Of a stretch of DNA of 37,173 bases, positions 28,639 through 37,173 are shown piece after piece. The notes under the pieces are model-generated. The model was not told the origin of the DNA and did no database searches. It worked only from the letters and a program-made list of their open reading frames with translations. Source of the DNA: an uncultured Lutibacter sp. (GTDB lineage Bacteria > Bacteroidota > Bacteroidia > Flavobacteriales > Flavobacteriaceae); NCBI RefSeq assembly GCF_937891065.1, contig NZ_CALAEQ010000264.1, positions 1 through 37,173 on the forward strand, written 5' to 3'. The translations under genes were made by a program, and so were the position numbers. Position 1 is the stretch's first letter; each line of letters opens with the position of its first letter.

Positions 28639-30531
28639 TTAATTCCAAGTGGGCAAGGTACAATTTTTGCTCAATTTATTTAATAACGGCTCTATTCCAT
28701 TCACTAAACTTTGTTGCATCATTTTTGAATCATCTTTATGGCATTGCAAACAAGCTCCAACCAACAATAATTGCTGTTGTTCTTTTACTGAAAAAGGTCT
28801 AAAATCTAATCGAGTTGAATTAACAACACCTTCTTTAACTTCCTTTAAAAATGGAATCCAAGCATCTTCTGGTAAACTATCATTTGGATTATCAGCATAT
28901 TCAGCATTAAAATTCCATTTCCCTTTGCCATTTTCAATTATGTAAACTAACTCTCCTTTTCCATAACCCAAAGTTGCAGAATTAGCATGGCAAGATTTAC
29001 AATCTCTAACTTTACTGATTGTTGTATGTGGAGAATTTGGAGCATATAATCTATGAAAAGTAACATCTTTTCCAATTTCACCAGTATAACTTCCTTTATC
29101 AATAGTCATAATCATTCCTGGGATTGCTGGTTCAATATTTTTTCCGTCTTTATTTTCACGAACTCCAATTGCTGGTAATGAAGACGAAAATTCAGCAACA
29201 TGCTCTTTCCATTGCCCTTTTCCATATTTTTTATCTAACAAATCAAATGCTCTTGGCTCATTTTTATCAAATTCTGTATGACAACCAATACAACGTGAAG
29301 TCCATGATGAATGGCATGTTGCACAACTCACATTTTTATGAGCATTATCTCTTGAACAAATTTCAGGTTGTGGGTTTAATGGGTGAAGTACACCATCTTT
29401 TTTCCCAATTAAAAAAGCATTTCCTAAAGAATCAATAAACGTATTTACTAATGGGTGATTATCTTTTTTAACAGCAATCATTTCTTTATCATAATGTGTG
29501 TAATCTCTATGTAAAAAAACCAATAAACTTTCAGCATCTAAAGAATCGTATGAAATTGTGTTTGGTTTTTCTTTAAAATGACAGTCGGCACATTGTAAAG
29601 TAACAGCTTGTTCTTCGTGAGTATATTTTTTTCCAGTACCCATTACCTCATGTGACGAATGACAATCTACACATAACAATCCTTTTGTATGATGTATATC
29701 TTCTTCAATGTATTTATAAACACGTTTATCTTCAACAGTTTTAAACCCCTTAAAACCTATAATCTCTTCTTCATTTAACATTGTTTCTTGCCAACCTTCA
29801 TAATTTGTTGAAATTCTACTTGAACGACTATGACAACCATAACAATGCTCATTTTTCACAAAAATATCTGTTGAAGGGTGAAATTTTGGCAATTCTTTTT
29901 TATCAGAAGATAAATAATTCACTAAATCAGTTTTAGCTTCTTCAGAATAATTTAAATGACACGCATTACAACCTCCACCTCTACTCATCTGTGTAATTTC
30001 ACCGTATTCCTGTTTTTCTGCTCCTAAATGACAATTAGCGCATAAATCACGTATATGTTTATCTGCAGGCGAATCTTTAATATCTTTTATATGATAATGA
30101 TAATCTGGGGAATCTGCTTCACCAAAAATATATTTATCAACAGCAACCAATCCACTATTAGTTGTCATTAGCGAGTTTTCAATTTTAGAAAGTTCATTTG
30201 GGTGACATTTCCCACAAGTTACAGCAGCATCTACTAAATTACCTGGTATTAAAACCATTCCTTTATGTGAATCTTCCTTATCTAAAGTATTAGGATTTCC
30301 TAAATGACAACTTATACAACCAATTAGTTCAGGATTGTGATATTCTGAATAACCTTTTGTATCTGAATGACAATTTAAACAAGACTCTTCATCTATATTT
30401 TCAATTTTTATATACTGAATTTCATGATTGCCTATTATCTCTAAATCATCTTTACTTTTTAAAAAGAAAAGAATAAGTACTCCTGTAATTAGTAATGCAA
30501 AAAAACCAACTTTAGCGAATTTTATCTTCAT
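28639..30531 (-). CDS. membrane-anchored dodecaheme c-type cytochrome
   Basis: The 630-residue protein has one N-terminal membrane helix (about 7-24, no lipobox) and then a periplasmic body with twelve CxxCH heme motifs: CLNCH, CISCH, CGKCH, CANCH, CNACH, CYGCH, CVDCH, CADCH, CATCH, CIGCH, CKSCH and CLQCH. Two further cysteines (EICSRDN, KNCTLPT) are not in heme motifs. No NapC, NrfA or hydroxylamine-oxidoreductase signature that I can name is present, so the family is unassigned. It should carry electrons in the periplasm. It is divergent from the molybdopterin oxidoreductase operon across 241 bases, which suggests it is the redox partner of that complex. All motifs are canonical CxxCH and none is broken. 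Confidence 0.92.
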   Translation of the reverse strand: MKIKFAKVGFFALLITGVLILFFLKSKDDLEIIGNHEIQYIKIENIDEESCLNCHSDTKGYSEYHNPELIGCISCHLGNPNTLDKEDSHKGMVLIPGNLVDAAVTCGKCHPNELSKIENSLMTTNSGLVAVDKYIFGEADSPDYHYHIKDIKDSPADKHIRDLCANCHLGAEKQEYGEITQMSRGGGCNACHLNYSEEAKTDLVNYLSSDKKELPKFHPSTDIFVKNEHCYGCHSRSSRISTNYEGWQETMLNEEEIIGFKGFKTVEDKRVYKYIEEDIHHTKGLLCVDCHSSHEVMGTGKKYTHEEQAVTLQCADCHFKEKPNTISYDSLDAESLLVFLHRDYTHYDKEMIAVKKDNHPLVNTFIDSLGNAFLIGKKDGVLHPLNPQPEICSRDNAHKNVSCATCHSSWTSRCIGCHTEFDKNEPRAFDLLDKKYGKGQWKEHVAEFSSSLPAIGVRENKDGKNIEPAIPGMIMTIDKGSYTGEIGKDVTFHRLYAPNSPHTTISKVRDCKSCHANSATLGYGKGELVYIIENGKGKWNFNAEYADNPNDSLPEDAWIPFLKEVKEGVVNSTRLDFRPFSVKEQQQLLLVGACLQCHKDDSKMMQQSLVNGIEPLLNKLSKNCTLPTWN

Positions 30532-30772: not shown

Positions 30773-33028
30773 ATGAATAAACTTATGACTACTTCAAGAA
30801 GAAAATTTATTAAAATTTCTGCCTTAGGATTAGGAGGTGTTGCGGCAACTACAAGTGCAATTAATGTATTTGGGGCCAATTCATATTTAGATGATTTAGT
30901 AAAACAAAAAGTTTCTAAAGAATTTAAAAGAACTGCTACCTATTGCGAAGTTTGCTTTTGGAAATGTGCTGCTTGGACATACACAAATGAAGAAGGCGAG
31001 ATTAAAAAAATTATTGGTAACGAAGATGATACTCATTGTGAAGGAAGGCTTTGCCCTAGAGGTACAGGTGGAGTAGGAATGTATACTGATCAAGACCGAC
31101 TTAAAACTCCCTTAATCCGAACTACAGTAAATGGTGAAGAAACATTTAAAGAAGCTAGTTGGGAAGAAGCTTTAGATTTAATTGCTTCAAAATTTAAAAC
31201 TGTAATTGATTCTCATGGGCCTGAATCTATAGCATTAATTAAACACGGGTCACCAGGATCACATTTAGAACATTTATATAAAGCTTTTGGATCAGATACA
31301 ATTGCAGAACCAGCTTATGCACAATGTAGAGGCCCTAGAGAAACAGGTTTTAAATCAACTTTTGGAAGTTGGGTGGGTTCCCCCGAACCAACTGATATTA
31401 GAGATACAAAATGTTTAGTGCTTATTGGTTCTCACATTGGTGAAAATATGCACAATTCTCAAGTTCAAGAAATGTCTGATGCAATAGATAATGGTGCTAC
31501 TATTATAACTGTTGATCCTAGACTATCTACTGCCGCAAGTAAATCTAAACACTGGTTAGCTATTAAACCTGCTACAGATATTGCTTTAATGCTTTCTTGG
31601 ATGAATGTATTAATTGAAGAAGGTTTATATGACAAGGCTTATGTAGAAAAATATGGACTAGGCTTTGATGAATTAAAAGAGCACGTAAAACAATTCACTC
31701 CTGAGTGGGCCTATGGTATTACAACAATAAAACCTGAAGAAATCAGAAAAACTGCAAGAGTTATGGCTCATGCTGCACCTTCAGTAATTATCCATCCTGG
31801 ACGACATGTTGTATGGTATGGTGATGATACACAACGTGCAAGAGCAATGGCTATTTTAAATGGTTTATTAGGTTCTTGGGGACGTCGTGGTGGATTTTAT
31901 TTTAAAGAAAAAATTTCAGTACCTAAATTTCCACAACCTAAATATCATCACCCAAAATGGGGATGGAAAGAAATTGGAGAGAAATATCCTTTAGCTGAAA
32001 TGGGAATTACAAGCGAGGTTCTTAGAGCTGCGATACCTAGTGATGATAATAAATATCCTGTTAAAGCATTAATGGTTGCAGGAACTAATATTACAAAATC
32101 AATTCCAGATAGAAAACTATTAGAAGAAGCTTTAGAAGCTTTAGACTTTGTTGTTGTTATTGACACAATGCCAATGGATGTTACAGGTTTTGCTGATGTA
32201 GTACTACCTGAATGTACCTATTTAGAACGCTTCGATGGTATACGATCAGCTACTAACCGACACCCTTCTATTGCTGTAAGAGTTCCCGCTGTACCTCCAA
32301 AATATGATTCAAAACCAGCATGGTGGATGGCCAAACAAATTGGGGAACGTTTAGGTGTTGGAGAATATTTTAATTATGATGATTTTAAAGAAGTTATTGA
32401 GTGGCAATTAAAAGAAATGGGAACTTCTTTAGAAGAAATGGAGAAAATTGGAGTTAAAAATTACCCACGTAAGTCGGGTCCAATGTATCTAAATGAAGAT
32501 GAAATATACCAATTTCCAACAGTAAGTGGTAAAATTGAATTTTATTCTCAAGAATTAAAAAATTTAGGATTTGATCCAATACCAAAATATACAGCTCACC
32601 CAGAACCACCACAAGGTTTTTATAGATTAAATTATGGTAGAGCTCCAATGCATACTTTTAGCAGAACTGCAAACAATCCTAATTTAAATGATTTAATGGA
32701 TGAAAATAAACTTTGGGTAAACCCTAAAGTTGCTAGAATACTTAGATTAAAAACAAACCAAGAGGTTTGGTTAAAAAATCAAGATGATGTTACTTCTACT
32801 TTCTCTATAAAAGTGAGAGTTACTGAAAGAGTTCGTTGGGATTCTGTTTATATGGTTCATGGTTTTGGACATGATAATAAAAAATTAAGCAACACTTATG
32901 GTAAAGGTATAAACGATACTCAATTAATTTCAAAAGTAGCTGTTGACCCTATTATGGGAGGAACTGGAATGAGAGGAAATTTTGTTACAATTTTAACTGA
33001 AAACCCACATAAAAATACTGAGATATGA
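30773..33028 (+). CDS. molybdopterin oxidoreductase, PsrA/PhsA-like catalytic subunit
   Basis: The 751-residue protein begins with a twin-arginine signal (TSRRKFIKISALGLGG), so it is exported folded with its cofactor. An N-terminal 4Fe-4S site is formed by Cys58, Cys61 and Cys65 in CEVCFWKC and Cys94 in GRLCPRG. The likely Mo ligand is Cys185 in YAQCRGPRETG. MGD-binding motifs are spread through the body (IGSHIGENMHN, DPRLSTAA, GTNITKSIPD). The C-terminal domain begins near residue 635 with RAPMHTFSRTANNP. This is the DMSO-reductase superfamily, CISM group (thiosulfate, polysulfide, tetrathionate or arsenate-type enzymes). The sulfur genes downstream favour a sulfur substrate, but neither substrate nor direction is shown by sequence. 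An alternative start is the ATG at 30785. Stop and next start overlap (ATGA). Confidence 0.93.
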   Translation: MNKLMTTSRRKFIKISALGLGGVAATTSAINVFGANSYLDDLVKQKVSKEFKRTATYCEVCFWKCAAWTYTNEEGEIKKIIGNEDDTHCEGRLCPRGTGGVGMYTDQDRLKTPLIRTTVNGEETFKEASWEEALDLIASKFKTVIDSHGPESIALIKHGSPGSHLEHLYKAFGSDTIAEPAYAQCRGPRETGFKSTFGSWVGSPEPTDIRDTKCLVLIGSHIGENMHNSQVQEMSDAIDNGATIITVDPRLSTAASKSKHWLAIKPATDIALMLSWMNVLIEEGLYDKAYVEKYGLGFDELKEHVKQFTPEWAYGITTIKPEEIRKTARVMAHAAPSVIIHPGRHVVWYGDDTQRARAMAILNGLLGSWGRRGGFYFKEKISVPKFPQPKYHHPKWGWKEIGEKYPLAEMGITSEVLRAAIPSDDNKYPVKALMVAGTNITKSIPDRKLLEEALEALDFVVVIDTMPMDVTGFADVVLPECTYLERFDGIRSATNRHPSIAVRVPAVPPKYDSKPAWWMAKQIGERLGVGEYFNYDDFKEVIEWQLKEMGTSLEEMEKIGVKNYPRKSGPMYLNEDEIYQFPTVSGKIEFYSQELKNLGFDPIPKYTAHPEPPQGFYRLNYGRAPMHTFSRTANNPNLNDLMDENKLWVNPKVARILRLKTNQEVWLKNQDDVTSTFSIKVRVTERVRWDSVYMVHGFGHDNKKLSNTYGKGINDTQLISKVAVDPIMGGTGMRGNFVTILTENPHKNTEI

Positions 33029-33558
33029 GATATGCAATGGTAATAGACACATTAAAATGTGTTGGATGTAGTGATTGTGTTGTCGCCTGTCAAACAGAAA
33101 ACGATGTACCAATTGGGTATTGTAGAGATTGGATTACTGAAACCGTTAGCGGTACATATCCAAATCTAGATTTAGAACTAAAATCTGAAAGATGTAATCA
33201 TTGCGATAACGCACCTTGCGTACGTTGTTGCCCTACAGGAGCTAGTCATATAGTTGATGGTGGAATTGTACTTGTTACACCTGAAGAGTGTATTGGTTGT
33301 GGAGCTTGTATAGAATCCTGTCCTTATGATGCACGTTACCAACATCCTGATGGTTACGTAGATAAATGTACTTTCTGTCATCACAGATTAGAAAAAGGCC
33401 AATTGCCTGCTTGTGTGTCTGTGTGCCCAACAAAATGCATGTATTTTGGTGATTTAGACAATCCAAATAGCGAAGTTTCACAATTATTAAAAAATAGAAA
33501 GTATAAAACATTAGCTCCTGAAGCAGGAACTGATCCACATGTTTTTTACTTAACTTAA
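33025..33558 (+). CDS. 4Fe-4S ferredoxin-type electron-transfer subunit, PsrB/PhsB-like
   Basis: The 177-residue protein carries four iron-sulfur cluster motifs: CVGCSDCVVAC, CNHCDNAPCVRCC, CIGCGACIESC and CTFCHHRLEKGQLPACVSVC. That is the standard set for the beta subunit of CISM complexes, which passes electrons between the Mo subunit and the membrane subunit. It has no signal peptide and would be exported with the Tat-dependent alpha subunit. The start overlaps the end of the Mo subunit gene (ATGA), and the membrane subunit follows after ten bases. Confidence 0.94.
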   Translation: MRYAMVIDTLKCVGCSDCVVACQTENDVPIGYCRDWITETVSGTYPNLDLELKSERCNHCDNAPCVRCCPTGASHIVDGGIVLVTPEECIGCGACIESCPYDARYQHPDGYVDKCTFCHHRLEKGQLPACVSVCPTKCMYFGDLDNPNSEVSQLLKNRKYKTLAPEAGTDPHVFYLT

Positions 33559-33568
33559 AATTAAAATT

Positions 33569-34528
33569 ATGCAAGAAGAATTATTTACAAGTGGAAGACA
33601 TATACCGCATATAGATCCTTCATTAGAAATATGGCACTGGCCAATTTCTTTATACCTTTTTCTGGGAGGATTATCAGCTGGATTATTATTTTTTGCTGCC
33701 TTATTCTATATATTAGGAAAAGATAAAGAATACCCAACAGCAGTAAAAATCGCGTCTATTGTTCCTCCTATTGCTCTATCATTAGGGTTATTAGCTTTGG
33801 TTTACGATTTAACTCATAAACTATATACTTGGCAATTATATATGACTTTTAGAATTGAATCTCCAATGTCTTGGGGAGCATGGGTTCTATTAATTGTTAC
33901 TCCGCTTTCTTTTCTTTGGACATTTAGTTATTACCGAGAAATTTATCCAAGATTGGAACAAAAACTTCAAGTATTTAAAAAGTTTAAATTTTTAACTAAT
34001 GTTGAGAAATTTGTTCAGGAAAACAGAATATATATGGCATATGTTTTAATTCCTTTAACATTGGTTTTAGGTATTTACACAGGTATCTTATTGTCTGCAT
34101 TTAATGCACGTCCACTATGGAATAATGCTATTTTAGGCCCTTTATTTTTAGTTTCAGGTTTATCTACAGGTGCTGCAGCAATTATTTTACTTTCTAAAAA
34201 CAAGAAAGAAAAACACATGTTCGGCAAAATAGATTTGGTATTAATTATTATTGAATTAGCATTAATAGTTCATATGATTATGGGTTATTATGCCGGTTCA
34301 CAAGTTCAACTTGAAGCTATGCAATTATTAGTTGGTGGAGAATTTACACTAATATTCTTTGGATTTGTTGTAATCCTGGGGTTAATAATACCTGCGATAC
34401 TTGAACTAATTGAACTTATAGGCTATAAAGTTCCTTCAATGGTACCTGCGTTACTAGTTCTGTTAGGTGGTTTAATATTTAGATTTGTAATGGTTGAAGC
34501 AGGACAATTAACAAGATTCCTTTATTAA
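33569..34528 (+). CDS. NrfD/PsrC-like membrane subunit
   Basis: The 319-residue protein has eight predicted membrane helices, beginning WPISLYLFLGGLSAGLLFFAA (about residues 24-44) and including the LYTWQLYMTFRIESPMSWGAW loop typical of NrfD/PsrC. The family exchanges electrons with the quinone pool and anchors the complex. The N-terminus (FTSGRHIPHIDPSLEIWHW) matches the family's periplasmic start. With the two preceding genes it completes a three-subunit Psr/Phs-like enzyme. No heme-binding feature is expected or seen. Confidence 0.92.
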   Translation: MQEELFTSGRHIPHIDPSLEIWHWPISLYLFLGGLSAGLLFFAALFYILGKDKEYPTAVKIASIVPPIALSLGLLALVYDLTHKLYTWQLYMTFRIESPMSWGAWVLLIVTPLSFLWTFSYYREIYPRLEQKLQVFKKFKFLTNVEKFVQENRIYMAYVLIPLTLVLGIYTGILLSAFNARPLWNNAILGPLFLVSGLSTGAAAIILLSKNKKEKHMFGKIDLVLIIIELALIVHMIMGYYAGSQVQLEAMQLLVGGEFTLIFFGFVVILGLIIPAILELIELIGYKVPSMVPALLVLLGGLIFRFVMVEAGQLTRFLY

Positions 34529-34538
34529 AAAGTAAATT

Positions 34539-35066
34539 ATGAAAAATAATCAAAAAAATAGACACGTTTATTGGAACCCTTATTTTGGGGGATTCTTACT
34601 AGGAATTTTAATCTTATTTACTTTTTATATTACAGGTAGAGGATTAGGTGCAAGTGGAGCAATGAAAAGTAGTGTTGTTTCTATTGTAGATACAGTTGCG
34701 CCAACACATGCAGAAAATAGTGCTTATTACAGTAAATTTATAAGTGATGAAAAATCACCAATGAATACTTGGTTGGTATTTGAAGCTTTAGGTGTTTTAA
34801 TTGGTGCATTTATATCTGGTGGCTTAACTGGTCGAATTAACTGGAGAGTTCAACACTCACCAAAAATAACTTCTAAAAGAAGATTAGCTTTTGCTTTAGG
34901 CGGTGGTATTTTATTTGGGTTAGGAGCTCAAATTGCACGTGGCTGTACAAGTGGCGCTGCTTTAAGCGGTATGGCTGTATTATCAACAGGTGGTTTTATA
35001 ACAATGTTAGCCATTTTTGGTTCAGCATTCGCATTTGCTTACTTTTTTAGAAAAAATTGGATTTAA
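34539..35066 (+). CDS. YeeE/YedE family half-size sulfur transporter, first half
   Basis: The 175-residue membrane protein has about four helices and one cysteine, Cys136, in the conserved ARGCTSGAALSGMA motif. Full YeeE/YedE (TsuA) proteins have two such halves and take up thiosulfate through conserved membrane cysteines; this gene and the next each encode one half. A loop (about 40-75) with many Ser, Ala and Asp residues would face the periplasm. It follows the membrane subunit gene by ten bases in the same operon, which ties sulfur transport to the Mo enzyme. Confidence 0.86.
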   Translation: MKNNQKNRHVYWNPYFGGFLLGILILFTFYITGRGLGASGAMKSSVVSIVDTVAPTHAENSAYYSKFISDEKSPMNTWLVFEALGVLIGAFISGGLTGRINWRVQHSPKITSKRRLAFALGGGILFGLGAQIARGCTSGAALSGMAVLSTGGFITMLAIFGSAFAFAYFFRKNWI

Positions 35067-35088
35067 TAAAATAAAAAATAAAAAAAAT

Positions 35089-35679
35089 ATGGGACCATTA
35101 ATTCCTAACGGTATAATTCCACACGAATGGGATAGTATAATTGCCATTTTAATTGGTATTGTTTTTGGATTTGTTTTAGAAGCTTCTGGCTTTTCATCTT
35201 CAAGAAAACTTGCTGGATTATTTTACGGCTATGATTTCGCAGTATTAAAAGTTTTCTTTACAGCTGCTATAGTATCATTAATAGGTATGTATTATATGGA
35301 TTATCTAGGCTATGTTGATATAACACAAATGTATGTTCATCCTACTTATTTATGGGGAGCTATTATTGGAGGTATAATTATGGGTGTAGGTTTTGTCGCT
35401 GGAGGATTTTGTCCTGGGACGAGCTTATGCGCTGTTGCTATTGGTAAAATAGATGCTATAGTATATGTAATAGGAATTATGATTGGAGTATTCATTTTTT
35501 CTGAATTGTACTTCTTATTTGAACCTATTTACGAAGGTTTCTTTATGGGTAATATTACATTAATTGATTCTCTAGGGGTAAATCCTTATTGGTTTATATT
35601 TATATTTACCTTAATAGCAATTTTATCTTTTGTAATATCTGATATCATTCGTAAAAGAAATAAAAAAATATTTTACTAA
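35089..35679 (+). CDS. YeeE/YedE family half-size sulfur transporter, second half
   Basis: I place the start at 35089 (MGPLIPNGIIPHEWDSI), 22 bases after the previous stop; an earlier ATG would overlap that gene and adds a charged stretch. The 196-residue protein has about five helices and the second YedE signature GFVAGGFCPGTSLCAVAIGK with Cys108 and Cys112. Together with the previous protein it makes the two halves of a complete YeeE/YedE channel. The substrate could be thiosulfate, by analogy to TsuA, or another reduced sulfur compound. Confidence 0.86.
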   Translation: MGPLIPNGIIPHEWDSIIAILIGIVFGFVLEASGFSSSRKLAGLFYGYDFAVLKVFFTAAIVSLIGMYYMDYLGYVDITQMYVHPTYLWGAIIGGIIMGVGFVAGGFCPGTSLCAVAIGKIDAIVYVIGIMIGVFIFSELYFLFEPIYEGFFMGNITLIDSLGVNPYWFIFIFTLIAILSFVISDIIRKRNKKIFY

Positions 35680-35694
35680 TTTAACAACAACAAA

Positions 35695-36354
35695 ATGGTT
35701 AAAAAAAAGGTAGCAAAAGTTTTAGGTTTTAGATATAAGGCTCTTGCAGGTATATTAATCATACTTGCCGGTGGACTTGTTTTATTGCCTAAATACGAAA
35801 AACATGAAGGTATTAAACCTGAACAATTATTAAGTAACGTAATTAGTTCTGCAAGATATGTTTCAACTGATAAATTGGCTGATATCTTAATAAATCAAGA
35901 TCCTTCTTATTTATTAATAGATGTAAGAGATGAAGAGAGTTATAAAAAATACTCACTCCCAAATGCAGTTAATATACCACTTGCAAAATTATTAGATGAA
36001 GATTTTGAAGCATACTTAAACCAAAATTCATACAATGTAGTTCTGTATTCTAATGATCATTTTTATGCAGATCAAGCTTGGATACTATGCAACAGGTTAA
36101 ATTATAAAAACCTCAACGTTTTAAAAGGTGGAATTAATGAATGGTATGAAACTATTATAAACCCGCCAAAACCAACAGAAGACATGCCAGCTGAAGCATT
36201 TGAATTGTACACCTTCAGAAAAGCAGCAAGTATGTATTTTGGAGTAGCGTATATTCAGGAATTTAAAGTAGCACCAGTAGTAAAAAAAGTAGTTCCTAAA
36301 AAGGTTATTACTGTTAAAAAGAAAAAGAAAGCACCAGCAGAAGGTGGTTGTTAA
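35695..36354 (+). CDS. membrane-anchored rhodanese-like protein lacking the catalytic Cys, with Cys-terminal tail
   Basis: The 219-residue protein has a basic N-terminus, one membrane helix (about 15-31) and a rhodanese domain outside (about 55-152): LLIDVRDEESY, NAVNIPLAKL and VLKGGINEW are family hallmarks. The active-site loop, normally CxxGxR, reads VVLYSNDHFYAD, with Ser119 in place of Cys. A linker follows, then a lysine-rich tail KKVITVKKKKKAPAEGGC ending in Cys219. The only other cysteine is Cys132. The domain cannot work as a normal sulfurtransferase, but the tail Cys could carry a persulfide. It follows the YedE pair by 15 bases. Confidence 0.85.
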   Translation: MVKKKVAKVLGFRYKALAGILIILAGGLVLLPKYEKHEGIKPEQLLSNVISSARYVSTDKLADILINQDPSYLLIDVRDEESYKKYSLPNAVNIPLAKLLDEDFEAYLNQNSYNVVLYSNDHFYADQAWILCNRLNYKNLNVLKGGINEWYETIINPPKPTEDMPAEAFELYTFRKAASMYFGVAYIQEFKVAPVVKKVVPKKVITVKKKKKAPAEGGC

Positions 36355-36381
36355 TTTTAGACACTTTATAAAAAACTCTTT

Positions 36382-36999
36382 ATGAAAGAATTAGAAAAAA
36401 CCAAACGAATATCAATAGCTGGAACACTTACTATATTGATAGTACTAATAGCTGTCTTATCTTTTGAAAGACCAAAATATCTTTACAAAGTTAATAGTGT
36501 AAAAACACTTGAAAAATTAATAAGTTTTGATTACTATGTCTCATTAGACGAAATAAATAATCCTGATTTTATTTTAATTGACGTTAGAAATCAATTTGAA
36601 TATGAAAAAGGTCATATAGAAAATGCTATTAACATAACTACTTCTGAAATTTTAAGTGATAATAACACTGATATTTTGAAAGAAATTGAAGAAAAGGGAA
36701 AAATAGCACTATTGTATGGAGCAATTCCTAATGACGTAAATGGAGCATTCTTAATGATGACTCAATTAGGATTTAAAAATGTTAAAATTTTAACTGTTGA
36801 AAATAGTTACTTCGAAAATCAATTAATTACAAAAAATGTAAGTATTGAAAAGAGTAATGCAGACATACGAGCCTTTATTGATGAATCAATAAAAAAAGCA
36901 AATATAGATTCAGAAGAAAAAGTTGTAGTAAAAAAAATTACCAAAAAGGTAATTACGGTTCGAAAGAAGAAAAAAGCACCTGCTGAAGGTGGTTGTTAA
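36382..36999 (+). CDS. second membrane-anchored rhodanese-like protein, no catalytic Cys, same Cys-terminal tail
   Basis: The 205-residue protein repeats the layout of its neighbour: membrane helix (about 11-28) and a rhodanese-like domain (about 52-150) with FILIDVRNQFEYEKGHIENAINI. The active-site loop reads ALLYGAIPND, with Gly113 where Cys should be, and the GGxxxW motif is also lost. A charged linker leads to KKVITVRKKKKAPAEGGC. Cys205, the last residue, is the only cysteine in the protein. Outside the tail the two paralogues are very different. It is the last gene of the operon and is followed by a strong terminator. Confidence 0.85.
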   Translation: MKELEKTKRISIAGTLTILIVLIAVLSFERPKYLYKVNSVKTLEKLISFDYYVSLDEINNPDFILIDVRNQFEYEKGHIENAINITTSEILSDNNTDILKEIEEKGKIALLYGAIPNDVNGAFLMMTQLGFKNVKILTVENSYFENQLITKNVSIEKSNADIRAFIDESIKKANIDSEEKVVVKKITKKVITVRKKKKAPAEGGC

Positions 37000-37017
37000 T
37001 TAGTTTTAATAAATACT

Positions 37018-37056
37018 AAAAAAAGGCGATTTTTAAATTTAAAAATCGCCTTTTTT
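37018..37056. terminator. bidirectional intrinsic terminator of the Mo-enzyme/sulfur operon
   Basis: AAAAAAAGGCGATTTTT and AAAAATCGCCTTTTTT form a long stem around a short AT loop, 19 bases after the last rhodanese-like gene. The A- and T-runs on the two sides would let it also end the converging partial gene at the right edge. Confidence 0.93.
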
Positions 37057-37108
37057 ATATCAACATAGCAGTGACCACAACTTAAAACGTAGAATTTTAA
37101 ATAATTAG

Positions 37109-37173
37109 CTATTCATTTTTTTTAGCAAAAGTATTTAAATCTTTCCCAGTTGGTTCTTCAAATATTTCTAAAT
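37109..37173 (-). CDS. C-terminal fragment of an unidentified protein
   Basis: The minus strand reads in frame from the right edge as LEIFEEPTGKDLNTFAKKNE and stops at TAG (37109-37111). The frame is open over the 20 visible codons and is followed by the shared terminator, so it is probably the end of a real gene. Too little is visible to name it. Confidence 0.5.
   Translation of the reverse strand, partial: LEIFEEPTGKDLNTFAKKNE

Follow-up and report, generated by a model that had tools for sequence, protein, structure and literature searches.

Membrane-anchored pseudo-rhodaneses with Cys-tipped tails accompany a split YedE-type channel in Bacteroidota and are candidate sulfur carriers

Sud, a rhodanese-fold protein of Wolinella polysulfide respiration, works together with polysulfide reductase and uses a Cys residue located in its catalytic loop. 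The periplasmic sulfur carrier SoxY (SoxYZ) bears its Cys in a Gly-rich C-terminal arm, GGCGG (according to passages of PMC6067878 and PMC11237559). The transfer of sulfur from SoxY, considered a possible donor, to the YeeE-like channel SoxT has been called conceivable, the hand-over itself being an open question, and a direct Cys-to-Cys relay within the channel has been doubted owing to the ~7 Å spacing (PMC11582611). Thiosulfate uptake by TsuA/TsuB (YeeE/YeeD) requires, besides the Cys-containing YeeE channel, a Cys-bearing partner (passages of PMC11073785 and PMC11582611), which is cytoplasmic and TusA-like (passages of PMC11073785). YedE-centred sulfur transfer also characterizes the YTD cluster (YedE-TusA-DsrE) of sulfur disproportionators (passages of PMC12998232 and PMC13047784). 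The locus studied here lies in the window, the whole stretch of DNA analysed (37,173 nt), which is one entire contig (G000:C264) of a 276-contig Lutibacter (Flavobacteriaceae) genome, and comprises the following features:

28639..30531, - strand: ExtM-like multihaem cytochrome c, divergent; a frequent neighbour in relatives
30773..33028, + strand: psrA, Mo enzyme; its best solved relative, 2vpw_A, was deposited as thiosulfate reductase
33025..33558, + strand: psrB, 4Fe-4S subunit (Pfam and NCBIfam profiles)
33569..34528, + strand: psrC, NrfD-type membrane subunit (Pfam profile)
34539..35066, + strand: yedE1, second half of a YeeE/YedE-type channel (Pfam profile, channel Cys alignment)
35089..35679, + strand: yedE2, first half of a YeeE/YedE-type sulfur channel (Pfam profile, channel Cys alignment)
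35695..36354, + strand: rhd1, ORF of 219 aa; TM helix at the N-terminus, rhodanese fold with Ser119 in place of the catalytic Cys, and basic EGGC tail
36049..36051, + strand: Ser119 codon TCT, the rhodanese catalytic position of rhd1
36298..36351, + strand: rhd1 tail, 18 codons, read from the sequence as KKVITVKKKKKAPAEGGC
36382..36999, + strand: rhd2, ORF of 205 aa; TM helix at the N-terminus, rhodanese fold with Gly113 in place of the catalytic Cys, and EGGC tail
36718..36720, + strand: Gly113 codon GGA, the rhodanese catalytic position of rhd2
36943..36996, + strand: rhd2 tail, 18 codons, read from the sequence as KKVITVRKKKKAPAEGGC
37019..37056, no strand: perfect 19+19 nt inverted repeat with a T run, terminator-like by sequence, just after rhd2

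The genes rhd1 and rhd2 lie on the same strand, 27 nt apart, at the end of the order psrA-psrB-psrC-yedE1-yedE2-rhd1-rhd2, with the ExtM-like cytochrome gene divergent and upstream; the profile matches place the two tail proteins in a psrABC-yedE operon, which supports a previous sequence-only reading of this DNA in this respect. Since the contig stops 174 nt after rhd2, the remainder of the locus was read from relatives: in L040 and similar ones, rhd2 is followed by rhd3, rhd4, an ExtI-like porin and a CRP-type regulator. The rhd3 and rhd4 of such relatives have tandem rhodanese domains with Cys in CYSGQ, CLTGQ or CYTGQ loops. The terminator-like repeat suggests that rhd3 and the genes beyond it may form a separate transcript. 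Comparisons covered a same-genus set of 38 genomes including the window's own (out of 100 genomes), the best 80 of 267 relatives as named loci, whose record titles are Bacteroidetes-type plus one Chlorobiota, and 395 sampled Bacteroidota genomes.

Both proteins belong to the rhodanese family, as PF00581 (Rhodanese; cut-off 22.2 bits) matches rhd1 with 56.9 and rhd2 with 51.2 bits and is the sole Pfam match in each at E<=0.001. Their AlphaFold2 models (mean pLDDT 84.8 and 85.4, respectively) consist of an N-terminal helix of ~27 residues followed by a rhodanese fold, and the top Foldseek matches include rhodanese-related chains, such as 3gk5. In these models Ser119 of rhd1 comes straight after strand 114-118 and Gly113 of rhd2 straight after strand 108-112, which we take to be the site of the rhodanese catalytic Cys. 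This position holds Ser in 25, Ala in 21, Gly in 15, Cys in 2 and Asp in 1 of 64 rhd1-type representatives, and Gly in 51, Ala in 5, Ser in 1 and Asn in 1 of 58 rhd2 sequences; that is, the catalytic Cys is missing in 62/64 and 58/58 of them. The two exceptions, L214 and L217, are rhd1-type proteins that have both this Cys and the tail. For lack of the catalytic Cys, the identification of rhd1 and rhd2 as active rhodanese sulfurtransferases is rejected. ORFs, PF00581 matches, codons and models all agree with the earlier description of two rhodanese folds with Ser119 or Gly113 in place of the catalytic Cys, and the N-terminal TM helix found in both with their description as membrane anchored.

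Codon reading confirmed that the tails, KKVITV(K/R)KKKKAPAEGGC, are nearly identical, as had also been claimed: 17 of 18 residues are shared, with a single Lys/Arg change and six synonymous codon differences. They fall in the longest direct repeat of positions 35000-37173 (90 nt, 78% identity; the next longest measures 27 nt). The remainder of the two proteins, minus the last 30 residues, has a mean identity of 26% within a genome (28 Lutibacter pairs). The final residue is the Cys in both, and in rhd2 this is the only one, just as the sequence-only reading had it; rhd1 has an additional Cys132, in a column that holds Cys in 40/59 rows, compared with 59/59 for the terminal one. The latter is the only Cys column kept throughout (57/58 rows in rhd2). 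The tails have no secondary structure in the models (tail block pLDDT of 54-59 for rhd1 residues 191-219 and 61-77 for rhd2 residues 181-205), and, with their conserved terminal Cys, they are candidates for the flexible arm of a swinging-arm carrier, in which the Cys would have to be reactive and bear a persulfide or sulfonate. A protein search with the tail found no further copies in the window's own genome (95.2% complete). Since none of 567 frames of other operon genes (psrA, psrB, psrC, yedE1, unfused yedE2 and cytochrome; duplicates kept) ends in Cys, the Cys endings of rhd1 and rhd2 are not due to chance. In the Lys runs of the tails (36316-36330 and 36961-36975), AAG and AAA codons often alternate across the genus, which perhaps avoids slippage on long A runs.

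Within the 38 Lutibacter genomes, rhd1 occurs in 31, and all 30 copies that reach a stop codon in their contig end in EGGC, like 28/28 complete rhd2 frames. More widely, after de-duplication and exclusion of contig-edge frames (1 rhd1, 2 rhd2), 144 of the 145 complete rhd1-family frames end in Cys, as the last (135) or next-to-last (9) residue. Their endings are GGC (111), EGC (18), MGC (4), DGC (1), FQC (1) and GGC plus one residue (9); the 145th frame is frameshifted, with an EGC tail in the next frame. The tail is present in 80 of 84 complete rhd2 frames. In L102 a frameshift has moved it to the next frame, and rhd2 of L072, L091 and L097 showed no tail in three frames across the next 330 nt. 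Homologues with this gene context but no terminal Cys, proposed earlier as an argument against function, do exist, but they are rare and limited to rhd2 (3/84), since rhd1 retains its tail at all three loci.

Some other rhodaneses of these loci have comparable ends. At L091 (9613-10668), ...VQEGGC forms the end of the lipoprotein-like rhd3 located downstream, as though rhd3 had taken over from the lost rhd2 tail, and a multihaem cytochrome (534 aa) comes next. The rhd3 of the Lutibacter loci L059, L075 and L033 ends in ...AAPGCD, a possible extra arm variant. In two genomes from a different family within the same taxonomic order (L046:7025-9572 and L047:9497-12149), three consecutive rhodaneses, including a tandem rhodanese with active-loop Cys and a lipoprotein-like start, each have a K-rich ...KKAVSGGCG end.

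Because the profile used initially (A1) included the tail, and hence a possible selection bias, a tail-free profile of the domain only (A5) was built and the 395 Bacteroidota genomes were searched again. It detected 64 places with at least 67.9 bits in 61 genomes. Of these frames, 63 have Cys as their final residue or one before it; in the remaining one (G388), a frameshift has put the ending ...KKKKREGC into the following frame. A5 recovered the A1 set and one extra place (G384, ending in GGCA). Below the threshold, a 62.5-bit match corresponds to a 125-aa frame without a Cys end and all others have at most 53 bits; three rhd2, one of them that of the window, score in this range and stand outside the 64. 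Relatives of the rhodanese part of L165 were not found in plasmid records at E<=1e-3. The observation is confirmed: the Cys-tipped tails exist, occur widely in the phylum and evolve under selection, and the broad conservation of the terminal Cys speaks for the functional tail that the sequence-only reading had proposed.

That selection is purifying. Pairs more than 75% identical (34 for the rhd1 tail and 17 for the rhd2 tail) gave pN/pS values for rhd1 and rhd2 of 0.100 and 0.046 in the tail, 0.159 and 0.191 in the domain, and 0.425 and 0.286 in the linker; pS was similar throughout, with pN of 0.039/0.017, 0.081/0.080 and 0.196/0.121, respectively. The tail is therefore the most constrained part of both proteins, below the domain and far below the adjoining linker, in line with the selection suspected before. 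At the four variable positions that precede GGC, the rhd1 and rhd2 of the same genome agree in 88.6% of cases (77 of 81 pairs; L072, L091, L097 and L102, with no GGC in the rhd2 frame, were omitted), compared with 40.2% for shuffled pairs (maximum of 49% in 3000 shuffles) and 73.1% and 76.0% for the nearest relative's orthologues. The co-varying stretch comprises approximately the last 14-17 residues and fades upstream. The tail thus varies between species, but in step in the two proteins and not freely, the latter having been named as an objection to function. Taken as a whole, the data agree with a tethered carrier that has its tail read by a common partner. A short C-terminal motif common to otherwise diverged proteins and co-varying within a genome might also act on a shared machinery as a signal for recognition, sorting or processing, lipidation or another modification of the Cys included; however, a membrane anchor, a lipoprotein-like start or fusion to a polytopic protein is present in these proteins anyway, an extra residue after the Cys is tolerated (9/145 rhd1 and 3/84 rhd2 frames), and only rhd1 and rhd2 bear the tail in the window's genome, so that we regard such a signal as very unlikely.

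The agreement of the tails could alternatively result from functionless gene conversion between neighbours. Some homogenisation at the DNA level is indeed present: at non-Lys tail sites with the same residue, codon identity reaches 61% compared with 45% expected from the codon usage of the genes themselves (498 sites), the identity of synonymous codons in the same genome amounts to 67% compared with 54% after shuffling, the last 11 tail codons of rhd1 and rhd2 are identical in G001, and the two genes of G010, like those of G001, have nearly all tail codons in common. Gene conversion therefore contributes to the matching. Nevertheless, the 67% does not exceed the values for the nearest orthologues (74% and 67%), and apparently independent parallel changes occur: in G027, rhd1 changed CCT->GCT and rhd2 CCC->GCC where relatives have CCT/CCC, a Pro->Ala replacement seemingly made separately in each gene, as also in G003. 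Conversion and parallel point changes seem both to contribute to the matching tails. Conversion cannot, by contrast, explain their conservation, because the tail is also kept where only one copy is present; strong purifying selection speaks against it too, and as a complete explanation it is extremely improbable. The recent copying that the sequence-only reading had offered as a counter-explanation is accordingly visible in part, but a recent duplication as sole cause of tail identity is ruled out by selection, co-variation and single-copy conservation.

The most constant partner of the tail proteins is YedE and not the Mo enzyme. The products of yedE1 and yedE2 match Sulf_transp (PF04143) with 85.2 and 55.0 bits and have the channel Cys of YeeE/YedE proteins, and the pair would constitute the two halves of one channel. 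In alignments with the S. thermophila YeeE structures 6leo and 8j4c, YedE1 Cys136 corresponds to the 'aggC' Cys of the second half (E 0.0006) and YedE2 Cys108, weakly, to that of the first half (E 0.018), presumably Cys293 and Cys91, respectively. These columns hold Cys in 135/136 YedE1 and 136/138 YedE2 sequences, with a second YedE2 Cys in 97/138. The Cys columns common in YedE1 and YedE2 (>30% of rows) are only three, all of them inside channel-motif stretches; beyond the two motif regions, no conserved residue matches the third channel Cys of YeeE. YedE adjoins the tail rhodanese in 63 of the 64 A5 places, and in 32 of the 64 yedE2 and rhd1 are fused (yedE2::rhd1), which puts the arm on the channel subunit itself. 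Starting from YedE2, all 67 places with at least 113 bits (63 in the A5 set, plus G318, G232, G400 and G365, where the rhodanese scores are lower, 25.6-47.3 bits) have a Cys-tailed rhodanese as neighbour or fusion partner, counting the G388 frameshift; two of these rhodaneses end in GGLCS. Seven weaker YedE2 homologues score at most 66.8 bits; of the two examined, L236 yielded no rhodanese frame and the one frame of L237 that scores as a rhodanese (549 aa) lacks a Cys end. The Lutibacter genomes G014, G019 and G036, which have neither rhd1 nor rhd2, carry a YedE1/YedE2::rhodanese system (L231, L232 and L233-L234) instead of the psrABC type. These systems include octaheme and b-type cytochromes, the octaheme one encoded beside the YedE2 fusion in G019 and G036 and on another contig, with yedE1, in G014.

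One fully conserved Cys per protein, probably located in an oxidising compartment, and the presence in many Flavobacteriaceae of two paralogues whose tails match would also be compatible with a structural or redox disulfide that joins the two tail proteins, or one of them to YedE or the reductase, and carries no sulfur. We consider this quite unlikely: the Cys is kept at single-protein loci and in YedE2 fusions as well, YedE1 and YedE2 offer just the three common Cys columns of the channel motifs, and the genomic context is that of sulfur genes.

The reductase next to the tail proteins changes from locus to locus. Within the ~12.5-13 kb read around each of the 64 A5 places, the neighbours are PsrABC in 26, an octaheme cytochrome in 32 and only a tandem rhodanese in 5, the contig being too short in 1. 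The octaheme type combines a tetrathionate-reductase-family cytochrome with a cytochrome b; the L165 copy matches the octaheme family TIGR04315 with 579.6 bits and the others were assigned by their similarity to it. A tail specific to PsrABC is ruled out by these neighbourhoods. Of the Mo enzyme and YedE, which the sequence-only reading had named as possible partners, YedE is the more constant neighbour.

The main role of the arm might still be to supply the periplasmic reductase, whether PsrA or the octaheme cytochrome, with sulfur or to hold substrate in it, just as the polysulfide reductase of Wolinella is supplied by Sud; YedE would then be a companion only. One or the other reductase adjoins 58 of the 64 places, and a haloarchaeal rhodanese-like sulfurtransferase has been reported to be co-transcribed with PsrA (passages of PMC5437934). 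In addition, the 99% complete genome G390 (L205, G390:C4:1-9000) has psrABC, rhd1, rhd2 and both tails and gave no YedE1 match at E<=0.001 and no YedE2 match at E<=1e-8. YedE is consequently not indispensable, and the reductase may also use the arm. The G390 tails are less basic, with most of the Lys run gone (KKVKVEVEEGGC), a hint of a possible connection between the basic run and YedE. Against a role centred on the reductase, the Mo enzyme and the octaheme cytochrome are unrelated, five places have neither of them in the stretch read, and YedE is adjacent almost everywhere and fused in half of the places; we consider this explanation unlikely. At L235 (G020), psrA is split over two frames and psrB, psrC, YedE and the tail rhodanese were not found beside it in the stretch read, a joint loss of the module.

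Sulfane sulfur shuttling is favoured because YedE is the most constant partner, often within the same polypeptide, and because the changing reductases are presumably associated, judging from their family names, with S-S-bonded compounds (polysulfide, thiosulfate and tetrathionate). We find it fairly probable that rhd1 and rhd2 are periplasmic, membrane-tethered, SoxY-like sulfur carriers that link reductases and rhodaneses with YedE. The periplasmic side is suggested by TM predictions, by the N-terminal TM helix preceded by a basic N-terminus, and by the starts of rhd2 and rhd3 in the other family of this taxonomic order, which look lipoprotein-like by eye. The rhodanese fold would serve as a docking scaffold, the reactive Cys no longer sitting in the active-site loop but at the tip of a flexible, basic Gly-Gly-Cys arm. 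This arm could load sulfane sulfur, as persulfide or S-thiosulfonate, from periplasmic chemistry, the sources being the neighbouring rhodaneses that bear active sites and the reductase (PsrABC here, the octaheme cytochrome elsewhere), and would then offer it to the periplasmic opening of the split YedE1/YedE2 channel, which would import it. Alternatively, the arm might bring sulfur to the reductase; import appears to be the likelier direction. Persulfide on the terminal Cys, docking and direction of flow are suggested by this context, and the putative sulfur-arm function as a whole is well supported by genomic context and evolution.

Descriptions of Cys-tipped rhodaneses or YedE-rhodanese fusions were not found among the titles and abstracts that searches of the open PMC literature listed. 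It seems an even question whether these proteins represent an undescribed class of swinging-arm sulfur carriers, pseudo-rhodaneses that have their reactive Cys on a Lys-rich (G)GC arm at the C-terminus instead and are tied or fused to a split YedE channel across Bacteroidota. In such a class, one carrier-channel module would be combined with three enzyme systems of the periplasm (Mo polysulfide/thiosulfate reductase, octaheme cytochrome and tandem rhodanese), and co-evolution with a shared docking site would keep two arms matched in many Flavobacteriaceae. If true, a pseudo-enzyme would have been reused as a carrier by shifting its catalytic residue to the tail, and the YedE-linked 'rhodaneses' of Bacteroidota would acquire a function that is masked when they are annotated by Pfam domain. 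YedE2 fused to a Cys-tipped arm provides a concrete, testable candidate for the hand-over of sulfane sulfur to YeeE/YedE channels.

Compared with the described systems, the locus shows partial likeness to several. The window cytochrome (228 bits, cut-off 800) and the L040 porin (55.6 bits, cut-off 150) resemble, below the NCBIfam cut-offs, ExtM of a selenite/tellurite reduction operon and ExtI, respectively; rhd1 and rhd2 have no ExtH match (NF040901) at E<=0.001. As in the YTD cluster, YedE is central, but neither TusA nor DsrE was matched among the proteins scanned (sets of 9, 10 and 10, part of the neighbourhoods). Sud shares with rhd1 and rhd2 the rhodanese fold and the reductase context, whereas these have a tail Cys instead of the catalytic-loop Cys and are linked to YedE. 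As in TsuA/TsuB, a YedE-type channel is accompanied by a Cys-bearing protein, here on a rhodanese scaffold with a terminal Cys and probably periplasmic; in contrast with that system, the channel is split over two genes and the partner is often fused to one half. Neither protein matched the TusA family (TsuB/YeeD) or, in Pfam or NCBIfam, the DsrC profile at E<=0.001, nor the Pfam SoxY profile at the same threshold, so that membership in these families, as among active rhodaneses, is rejected. GGCGG endings are absent from the 145 rhd1 and 84 rhd2 frames, and rhd1 and rhd2 differ further from SoxY in their rhodanese fold, membrane anchor, Lys-rich arm and location in Bacteroidota reductase operons instead of Sox ones. 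The tails are nonetheless alike in ending in GGC or, in a few cases, GGCG, and like SoxY they have a YeeE/YedE-type channel as a possible recipient. The ...KKAVSGGCG ends of the L046 and L047 rhodaneses come close to the GGCGG arm (motif as given in passages of PMC6067878), and this arm of SoxY, and not the swinging arm of DsrC to which the tails had been likened before, is the closer known analogue.
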